DNA of 64,000 bases from Halobellus sp. MBLA0158. Lineage in GTDB: Archaea; Halobacteriota; Halobacteria; Halobacteriales; Haloferacaceae. The stretch spans positions 806,001-870,000 of the forward strand of contig NZ_JBGNYA010000001.1 of NCBI RefSeq assembly GCF_041477585.1, read 5' to 3'. The notes beneath the pieces are model-generated. The model was not told the origin of the DNA. It was given only the letters and a program-made list of their open reading frames with translations, and searched no databases. Shown one piece after another: positions 8,527 through 62,376 of this stretch (its first letter is position 1; each line of letters opens with the position of its first letter). A program made the translations under genes and the position numbers.

Positions 8527-8637
8527 CGAGCGAGTAACGCCTGCAAGCGAATATAAGATTTTGGTCCTGAAGTGACAACAGAATGTCGGAGATGAGATTT
8601 GAGCGACGTGTTTTCGGACGGTTCGGTTCGGAGGTGA

Positions 8638-9026
8638 TACGCCAGCCGGGAATCCCGCGAGCGAACGGAGTGAGCGAGGGGGATGTCGGCCGGCAGATAA
8701 TCGGAGAGAGTGCGCCGGCCGGGATTGTGAACCACGGTCGCTCTGCTCGCTGCGCTCGCGTCGCTCCCTGATTCAAATCCCTGCGGGGCGATTTCGCTGC
8801 TCACTTCGTTCACAGCAGAAATGCGCCGGCTGGGAATCTCCCGAGCGAACGGAGTGAGCGAGGGGGATGTCGGCCGGCAAACGACCGAAGGGAGTGCACC
8901 GGCCGGGATTGTGAACCACGTCGAGACGTTCCTGCTCGCTCACTTCGTTCGCTGCGCGGGCTGCGACTCGCCTGGCTCAAATCCCTGCGGGGCGATTTTC
9001 GTCCTCGCTGTCACTCGGACAGAAAA
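8638..9026. repeat. 184-bp tandem array carrying broken tRNA-Gly 3' ends
   Basis: Four degraded copies of the acceptor/T-arm end of the neighbouring tRNA-Gly gene begin at 8638, 8711, 8822 and 8895, all in the tRNA's orientation. They fall into two tandem units of 184 bp (8711 to 8895, and 8659 to 8843 for a shared segment starting gagcgaacggag). Between 8721-8731 and 8772-8781 the T-arm also appears inverted (GGGATTGTGAA against TTCAAATCCC), so each unit can fold into a hairpin. There is no coding potential. The remaining 8527-8637 stretch holds the kinase promoter and nothing else I can recognise. Confidence 0.85.
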
Positions 9027-9097
9027 TGCGCCGGCCGGGATTTGAACCCGGGCCATGAGCTTGGAAGGCTCAGGTCCTACCACTAGACCACCGGCGC
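9027..9097 (-). tRNA. tRNA-Gly(TCC)
   Basis: The cloverleaf is complete: acceptor GCGCCGG pairing with CCGGCGC, anticodon stem TGAGC/GCTCA, loop CTTCCAA with anticodon TCC, T-arm GGGTTCAAATCCC, discriminator A. CCA is not encoded. A TATA-like box (CCCTTATTCGG on the minus strand, near 9122-9131) lies about 25-34 nt upstream. Confidence 0.97.
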
Positions 9098-35030: not shown

Positions 35031-35197
35031 CGAGACGCCTCGCGGGGGTTACGGTTCAAAAAACGCCGGGACAGGGATTTGAACCACGGTCGCTCTGCTC
35101 GCGACGCTCCCTGATTCAAATCCCCTCGTCGTCGGTTTCGCGGCGCAACGCGTCCGCTCGGCGACGAGACGCCTCGCAGGGGTTCCGGCTCAAAAAG
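35031..35197. repeat. 134-bp tandem unit carrying a copy of the tRNA-Ser T-arm and its inverted form
   Basis: The segment starting CGAGACGCCT occurs at 35031 and again at 35165, 134 bp apart. Each runs through a near-identical stretch into the tRNA-Ser acceptor/T-arm sequence; the second copy is the true tRNA. The first copy of the T-arm, at 35064-35083, departs from the tRNA at CCACGG. The perfect inverted repeat GGGATTTGAA (35074-35083) / TTCAAATCCC (35115-35124) can form a hairpin. Confidence 0.85.
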
Positions 35198-35278
35198 CGC
35201 CGGGACAGGGATTTGAACCCTGGATCCCAGAGGGAACACGCTTTCCAGGCGTGCGCCTTACCACTCGGCCATCCCGGC
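35198..35278 (-). tRNA. tRNA-Ser(GGA)
   Basis: This is a class II tRNA with a long variable arm. The acceptor GCCGGGA pairs with TCCCGGC, the anticodon loop CTGGAAA gives GGA, the T-arm contains GGGTTCAAATCCC, and the discriminator is G. CCA is not encoded. A TATA-like box (ACTTAAAC on the minus strand, about 35304-35312) overlaps the stop codon of the upstream gene and lies 26-34 nt before the tRNA. Confidence 0.97.
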
Positions 35279-59892: not shown

Positions 59893-60042
59893 TTTTCACT
59901 GCTCATTCCGTTCACGAAGATGCAGGAACATGCCGCCTCCCGGATGAACTACGTCCAGAAATGCTCGCTCCGCTGCGCCTTTCTGGTCTAGTTCAAATCG
60001 CGGTCGGGGGCGTTTTCACTGCTCACTTCGTTCGCAGGAAAA
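59893..60042. repeat. hairpin element with direct and inverted copies of the tRNA-Phe T-arm
   Basis: A direct copy of the tRNA-Phe acceptor/T-arm starts at 59931, 112 bp before the matching point of the true gene, preceded by the shared TTTTCACTGCTCA (59893 and 60013). The direct copy and its inverted form pair as GAACTA (59946-59951) / TAGTTC (59989-59994) with an inner stem CCAGAAA (59955-59961) / TTTCTGG (59980-59986). The preceding 59758-59892 stretch holds no gene I can recognise. Confidence 0.85.
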
Positions 60043-60116
60043 TGCCGCCTCCCGGATTTGAACCGGGGACAGCTCGATCTTCAGTCGAGTGCTCTCCCAG
60101 TCTGAGCTAAGGCGGC
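60043..60116 (-). tRNA. tRNA-Phe(GAA)
   Basis: Acceptor GCCGCCT pairs with AGGCGGC, anticodon stem CTCGA/TCGAG, loop CTGAAGA with GAA, T-arm CCGGTTCAAATCCGG, discriminator A. CCA is not encoded. A strong TATA box on the minus strand (TTTTTTATATA, 60139-60149) lies 23-33 nt upstream. Confidence 0.97.
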
Positions 60117-62147: not shown

Positions 62148-62182
62148 TCCCATCGCTTCGAGCGTCGTAGGGGTTCTGTCGC

Positions 62183-62303
62183 ACTCGGGCGGATTCGAAC
62201 TAATCGAGAGACGGTCGCCTCGCTCCGCTCGGCGCTGCGACTCTCTGAGTTCGAATCGCCCTCAGTAACAGAAATCCTGCTCGCTGTCGCTCGCAGATTT
62301 CAG
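62183..62303. repeat. hairpin element with direct and inverted copies of the tRNA-Val T-arm
   Basis: A direct copy of the tRNA-Val acceptor/T-arm begins at about 62183, offset 124 bp from the true gene. ATTCGAACT (62193-62201) pairs with AGTTCGAAT (62248-62256), extended by GGGCG/CGCCC, with an inner GAGAG (62206-62210) / CTCTC (62241-62245). A segment with TCGCTCGCAGATTTCAG leads into the tRNA end. No gene is present. Confidence 0.85.
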
Positions 62304-62376
62304 TGGGCTCGGGCGGATTCGAACCACCGACCTCTTCCTTGTAAGGGAAGCGTCATAACCACTAGACCACGAGCCC
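62304..62376 (-). tRNA. tRNA-Val(TAC)
   Basis: Acceptor GGGCTCG pairs with CGAGCCC, anticodon stem CTTCC/GGAAG, loop CTTACAA with TAC, T-arm GGTGGTTCGAATCCGCC, discriminator A. CCA is not encoded. The minus-strand TATA-like GGTTATACAC (about 62400-62409) lies 24-33 nt upstream. Confidence 0.97.

Follow-up and report, generated by a model that had tools for sequence, protein, structure and literature searches.

The tRNA genes of the window and the repeats beyond them

The stretch of DNA analysed here, referred to below as the window, comprises 64,000 nucleotides of the Halobellus sp. MBLA0158 genome (contig positions 806001-870000; genome size 3.29 Mb) and holds four tRNA genes, all of them on the minus strand (Table 1). 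Directly beyond the intact tRNA-Gly (TCC) gene lies an array with four direct copies of its last 16-21 nt or so, each on the same strand as the gene. The array is a tandem repeat, in which a stretch of 100 nt recurs with 88% identity at a spacing of 184 nt (8637-8736 vs 8821-8920). A preliminary description of this DNA had reported four relics of the tRNA-Gly end in two 184-bp units past the intact gene, with inverted copies of the T-arm within the units, and the coordinates bear out both statements. It had also proposed that the same kind of element stands past all four tRNA genes of the window, each with the sequence of its own tRNA. This holds as well: units extend over 35064-35196 (Ser), 59931-60042 (Phe), and 62181-62302 (Val), and each matches its own tRNA. 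The direct copies score 15-22/24 against the tail of their own tRNA, compared with 7-8 upstream of the genes and a maximum of 9-12 in shuffled sequences, and at 4/4 of the window tRNAs the own tail outscores the tails of all other tRNAs.

A second form of the unit is also seen in the Gly array. It has a shorter block, from the T-stem to the end of the tRNA, with a GCTCGCTTCGCTCG-like hairpin before it but lacking an inverted copy. Direct copies 2 and 4 of Table 1 are of this form, which recurs past the tRNA-Gly (CCC) gene of the same genome (L003).

Table 1. tRNA genes of the window and the parts of the units that follow them
Feature	Position	Strand	Basis or remark
tRNA-Gly (TCC), intact	9027..9097	-	ARAGORN and Rfam RF00005, 71 bits
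Gly source block that is copied (T-loop TTC to tRNA 3' end, 20 nt)	9027..9046	-	sequence reading; cross-locus identity peak at 20 nt
Gly unit 1, spacer hairpin h1	8996..9026	-	read in sequence; 33/36 vs Leu-TAG spacer of Halegenticoccus tardaugens
Gly unit 1, inverted T-arm copy	8976..8985	-	read in sequence
Gly unit 1, hairpin linker, not the type A core	8916..8975	-	fold z -1.4, not significant
Gly direct copy 1 of tRNA end (TTCACAATCCCGGCCGGTGCA)	8895..8915	-	read in sequence
Gly direct copy 2, short form, no preceding inverted copy	8822..8837	-	same form past tRNA-Gly (CCC) of this genome
Gly unit 2, spacer hairpin h1	8791..8821	-	read in sequence
Gly unit 2, inverted T-arm copy	8772..8781	-	read in sequence
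Gly unit 2, type A linker core TCAGGGAG-hairpin-CGACCGTGG	8732..8771	-	strict core match, contig 814729-814774
Gly direct copy 3 of tRNA end	8711..8731	-	read in sequence
Gly direct copy 4, degenerate	8638..8653	-	read in sequence
tRNA-Ser (GGA)	35197..35278	-	tRNA gene call
Ser inverted T-arm copy	35115..35125	-	read in sequence
Ser type A linker	35084..35114	-	core match, contig 841081-841117; fold z -2.8
Ser direct copy of tRNA end	35064..35083	-	own score 22/24
tRNA-Phe (GAA)	60043..60116	-	tRNA gene call
Phe inverted T-arm copy	59992..59999	-	read in sequence
Phe direct copy of tRNA end	59931..59949	-	own score 15/24; fold z -3.4
tRNA-Val (TAC)	62303..62376	-	tRNA gene call
Val inverted T-arm copy	62250..62261	-	read in sequence
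Val direct copy of tRNA end	62181..62199	-	own score 17/24; fold z -3.8

Anatomy of the unit and the copied block

Read in the sense of the tRNA, a unit follows a fixed order: the last 20 nt of the tRNA, a spacer hairpin (h1), a short inverted copy, a hairpin linker, and the tRNA end again. The copied 20 nt run from the TTC of the T-loop through the last base of the tRNA, and the inverted copy covers the T-loop together with a portion of the T-stem. The commonest linker, termed type A, is made of TCAGGGAG, a variable hairpin, and CGACCGTGG, and a single array may mix several linker types (e.g., L103, L104, and L105). As regards terminal inverted repeats, the linker is framed by GGATTTGAA...TTCAAATCC, but with an outer part that varies with the target. 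Units are ordinarily 50-200 bp in size and have no integrase gene of their own, and arrays range from 1 to 11 units.

The length of the copied block was measured as ungapped identity counted from the TTC in 132 first units. The commonest end point is 20 nt, that is, the last base of the tRNA (27/132). In about 25/132 the run stops after only 3-6 nt (the TTC with little more), in most cases at a 1-nt difference in the copied T-loop that interrupts the ungapped comparison, while identity reaches past 35 nt in about 15/132 because the spacer that follows repeats too. An extra T-loop base, such as TTCACAATCC, is present in roughly 29/177 direct copies, counted by eye.

The two kinds of copies follow their host gene to different extents. 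Over the T-stem and acceptor, direct copies match their own tRNA at a mean of 10.8/12 positions and other tRNAs at 5.1, and 173/177 score their own tRNA above the others. The inverted copies are short and own-specific only at T-loop position 4 (match to own tRNA 0.90 vs 0.60 to other tRNAs) and over about 4 nt of the T-stem (positions 9-12, own/other: 0.85/0.69, 0.76/0.50, 0.56/0.25, and 0.50/0.36), with hardly any specificity further on.

Occurrence in the genome and across Halobacteria

The survey of the Halobellus genome covered 46 tRNA genes, two ARAGORN calls with long false introns having been removed before both counts. A direct copy of the own tRNA end (score at least 14/24) was found downstream of 16/46 genes, a number that excludes the Asp tandem gene pair (score 24). 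Complete units, for which a strict caller required an inverted and a direct copy together, follow 12/46 genes; the same caller found 0/92 in upstream controls (46 flanks, both strands).

Beyond this genome, one type of unit can be traced by its invariant core, GAATCAGGGAG-hairpin-CGACCGTGGTTC. In its strict form the core is present in 220/391 Halobacteria genomes and 68/86 genera, and the reversed pattern, used as a control, in 0/391 genomes. Elsewhere in the phylum the core was found in 0/101 genomes, compared with 8/19 inside the class in the same phylum sample. A scan of genome contigs gave at least 120 core-bearing stretches, and the 80 that were listed are all haloarchaeal by name. No match to the core pattern was obtained from viral contigs (0), nor did blastn of one unit match phages or plasmids. 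In the open-access literature, which was also searched by the letters of the core, no such haloarchaeal tRNA-adjacent element was found described; those letters occur in 16 papers, and the 15 of them that were listed deal, judging by their titles, with unrelated subjects.

The core lies almost exclusively past tRNA genes. Among 199 distinct occurrences, 178 have a tRNA gene on the same strand 35 to 382 nt upstream, representing 34 isoacceptors; the loci behind this count were gathered by the core and not by tRNA, except for the tRNA loci of the Halobellus genome itself. The 21 others comprise eight near a contig or locus edge, six at protein genes, five displaced behind an island end (L048 verified, four inferred), one behind a 2.9-kb insert, and one behind a degenerate tRNA. 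A large proportion of the tRNA genes of haloarchaea carry members of this family of tiny elements, which adopt the sequence of each host gene.

Palindromic hairpins resembling GAGCGAAGCGAGC are common in haloarchaeal genomes, and one could imagine that the units are such generic repeats, or chance similarities, that happen to lie beside tRNA genes. The upstream, shuffle, and reversed-pattern controls given above led us to reject this explanation, which we regard as virtually without credibility.

Units beyond protein genes and the question of an RNA function

Units are also found at the 3' ends of protein genes. An OB-fold protein gene of Natronorubrum texcoconense (L113) is followed by three units, of which the last is degenerate; they copy that gene's end, GGTTCGAACCGGTCT, in forward and inverted orientation. 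At the same OB-fold gene in another genome (G078, L232) there are again three units, with a duplicated block of 19-21 nt. Here the direct copies carry the GAGCC of the gene, a change that is not taken up in the inverted copy; the direct copies thus track the gene more closely than the inverted copy does. The OB-fold site is empty in 27/30 loci read, and the three filled loci represent two genomes, since L230 and L231 come from one genome that is counted double. Past another protein gene (G186, L098, reverse strand 938-1466) stand eleven nearly identical tandem units of 50 bp. This array is the smallest and also the most amplified of those seen.

Since the units at the OB-fold gene copy their own host gene, the process does not depend on tRNA function, and the protein-gene sites are our main reason to favour insertion at the DNA level over an RNA function specific to tRNA. 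Under the latter explanation the unit would be a transcribed element serving in tRNA maturation or termination, or acting as a small RNA, similar to the RtT RNA of Escherichia coli. Several features agree with it, namely the complementarity to the own tRNA, the conserved G.U and tandem G.A pairs of the linker, and the result of folding the units as single-stranded DNA, where the tRNA-sense strand is the more stable in 5/5 units. The folding scores of the Ser, Phe, and Val units (z from -2.8 to -3.8) stand out from shuffled sequences, whereas those of the two Gly units (-1.4 and -1.3) are no better than shuffles. In the tRNA-derived stems, however, the sense strand has more A.C mismatches than G.U (128 vs 71 in the first stem and 179 vs 122 in the second, as raw counts uncorrected for relatedness and composition), which is the opposite of what a sense-strand RNA helix predicts, so that mismatch bias and fold stability disagree as to the strand. 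Moreover, most tRNA genes lack units and their distribution is patchy between relatives, while the same element stands past protein genes and copies them. A function as RNA is therefore rather improbable in our estimation. As the sole cause of the units, a sense-strand RNA helix was also considered separately and is not supported, given the protein-gene units and the excess of A.C over G.U.

Gain, loss, and shared interiors

Filled and empty sites can be compared directly at the Ser-TGA locus, identified in the family by the same following gene. Among the 17 loci (of 30) that have the tRNA adjacent, 10 have no direct copy, six have one, and one has two. Within arrays, tandem units can be identical or nearly so, as in the 11 x 50 bp of L098 and the three 108-bp units of L091. 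Interiors also recur between different tRNAs. The Gly spacer of the window scores 33/36 against that of a Leu-TAG unit of Halegenticoccus tardaugens, compared with a mean score of 8.4 between different tRNAs, which means that the interior is common to different tRNAs and the ends differ.

Past tRNA-Thr (CGT) in one genome (G324, L100, 511-3473), two type A units with the same spacer and linker enclose 2.9 kb of DNA that contains a DUF6895 open frame. This stretch may represent a unit that carries cargo, or else an insertion.

These observations bear on the strongest rival to insertion, in which no enzyme takes part. The replication machinery would have switched strands at hairpins and so produced copies in the order forward, inverted, and forward, which would then have been multiplied by slippage or unequal crossover. 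Alternating direct and inverted copies that turn at hairpins are the product of double template switching, and tandem units as alike as those of L098 and L091, as well as inverted copies that are short and imperfect, are in keeping with such an origin. What speaks against it is the sameness of the interiors. One linker core is common to 68 genera and 34 isoacceptors and so has not been made anew for each tRNA; spacers are near-identical at different tRNAs; and the core at a protein-gene site is that seen beside tRNAs. We thus consider template switching unlikely, although it is the alternative to be taken most seriously.

Relation to integrase islands

Islands carrying an integrase use the same part of tRNA genes. 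In the Halobellus genome, a 13.0-kb island at tRNA-Arg (CCG) (contig about 492,900-506,050; L290) encodes a tyrosine recombinase (PF00589), a D5_N/DUF5906 protein, and an AAA ATPase. Its direct repeat, GGGTTCAAATCCCGTCGGGTCCGTT, is the same block from T-loop to tRNA end as that of the units, and the island has displaced an older unit from its tRNA.

To extend the comparison, 90 loci around relatives of the Arg-island recombinase were surveyed, and 39 copies of a tRNA end outside tRNA genes were found in them. An inverted copy upstream reaches at least 8/11 in 7/39 of these (five of them at 9), with 3.2% of control windows at 9 or above. Full reading of six of the seven (L300, L316, L344, L349, L359, and L371, leaving L369 with its score of 8) placed units just past the right end of the island, and in none of the six was an inverted copy found in the island's own arms. 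That the inverted copy and linker might be an island attachment arm was rejected, as the units of L300 and L316 sit beyond the right end. Side by side with units, the arrays of L359 and L349 contain solitary island-type arms (a partial tRNA-Phe, hairpins, and a tRNA end), such that island footprints and units are intermixed there.

As far as seen, then, islands and units have a common target, but the unit does not derive from the island arm. The units might still be relics of ordinary islands, of which the attachment block and an arm were left when the rest was deleted. The shared block and the frequent position of units or displaced arrays beside island ends (L048, L300, L316, L344, L349, L359, and L371) agree with this origin; the constancy of small size and part order across genera does not, nor does the fact that inverted copies at islands, where fully read, belong to units beyond the island end, and no island was found with a type A linker as its own arm. 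We judge descent from islands to be quite unlikely.

The preliminary description had rested its case on copies at other tRNA genes of this genome and its relatives, and in both they are abundant. Of its two explanations, repeated integration is not established for ordinary integrase islands, an inverted copy having been seen at no more than 7/39 tRNA-end copies. The other, an element that makes copies of the tRNA end, agrees with the data once amended to one that copies any T-arm-like gene end at which it sits, including that of a protein gene. The comparison with integrase sites that it suggested gave a divided answer: the attachment block is the same, but the inverted copies that were read lie outside the island end.

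A proposed mechanism

We propose that the units are gene-less mobile cassettes of about 50-200 bp, which insert site-specifically at T-arm-like gene 3' ends, duplicate some 20 bp of that end, and expand in tandem, and we give this proposal an even chance of being right. The target sequence of the units is T-arm-like, GGTTCRAAYCC, at gene 3' ends. Insertion would be carried out by a putative recombinase acting in trans, most likely of the tyrosine family, with a crossover presumably falling within the T-loop, by which the gene end would be rebuilt. Recombination between direct copies may then let arrays grow and shrink. Finally, the inverted copy would be corrected to the target, possibly via hairpin-templated repair or selection on folding.

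It is important to note what counts against insertion. A fresh insert should lack an inverted copy that matches its target, so the last of these steps has to be assumed. The identity runs of 3-6 nt, the island arms devoid of inverted copies in the six cases read, the empty scan of viral contigs, and the lack of a phage or plasmid match to the one unit compared weigh on the same side, and the protein-gene evidence is limited to two host genes.

If the mover were identified, it would explain how a tRNA 3' end can be duplicated without loss of the gene. With the protein-gene sites and with copy number as a simple read-out, the mechanism can be put to the test in haloarchaea that are amenable to genetics.

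Comparison with known systems

Islands mobilized by tyrosine recombinases attach over a block that begins in the T-loop and ends with the tRNA, and they rebuild the gene (PMC8371274). The units are similar in that their block is likewise common with the tRNA 3' end, and they differ in being gene-less and in having an inverted copy of the block. The small mobile repeats of Haloquadratum are described as highly conserved and bounded by terminal inverted repeats, and their mobilising enzyme is unknown (PMC3119063). Like these repeats and the MITEs and PATEs of Haloquadratum, the units are short, gene-less, and palindromic, with a strong target preference (PMC3119063). In contrast to the small mobile repeats, the ends of the haloarchaeal units copy the target gene.

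By analogy only, the attC arrays of integrons are also comparable, being tandem series of imperfect palindromes with a variable hairpin tip, whereas no integron integrase or cassette genes were seen with the units. Casposons, which are mobilized by a Cas1-type casposase, generate a target duplication of 14-15 bp at tRNA ends; relative to that definition, the block of the units is longer, at about 20 nt.

The closest parallel is provided by the tyrT repeats of E. coli, which were reportedly described by Egan and Landy in 1978. They are not known beyond one tRNA family in that species, and an RtT RNA (rttR) has been described there as a transcribed small RNA. In E. coli K-12 MG1655 (1285700-1287300), we found that the tRNA-Tyr end, ATCCTTCCCCCACCACCA, recurs in four direct copies spaced by 178 bp, and that three 10-nt stretches repeat it in inverted orientation, GGGGAAGGAT, followed by a palindrome-rich linker; the local score of the inverted copies was matched by 2/1000 shuffles. 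RtT annotations number 0 to 4 among 25 records sampled evenly from 5391, so copy number varies within the species. The likeness to the haloarchaeal units lies in tandem units past a tRNA, with about 19 nt of its 3' end in each, and in the inverted tRNA-end copy that the unit contains. The sequences and the hosts are different, and the Rfam RtT model at its gathering threshold had no match in the window, where only the four tRNAs were called. Compared with RtT, the haloarchaeal units are also far wider in scope, with 34 isoacceptors, most genera, a conserved linker core, mixed types, and protein-gene sites.

It is a doubtful idea that the units of haloarchaea and the tyrT repeats of E. coli belong to one hitherto unrecognised class that spans two domains, in which gene-less cassettes in the form of single-stranded hairpins would be moved by a dedicated recombinase into T-arm-like gene ends, leaving forward and backward copies of the gene end in integron-like arrays. 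Identifying the mover in haloarchaea could also explain the long-known repeats at tyrT.
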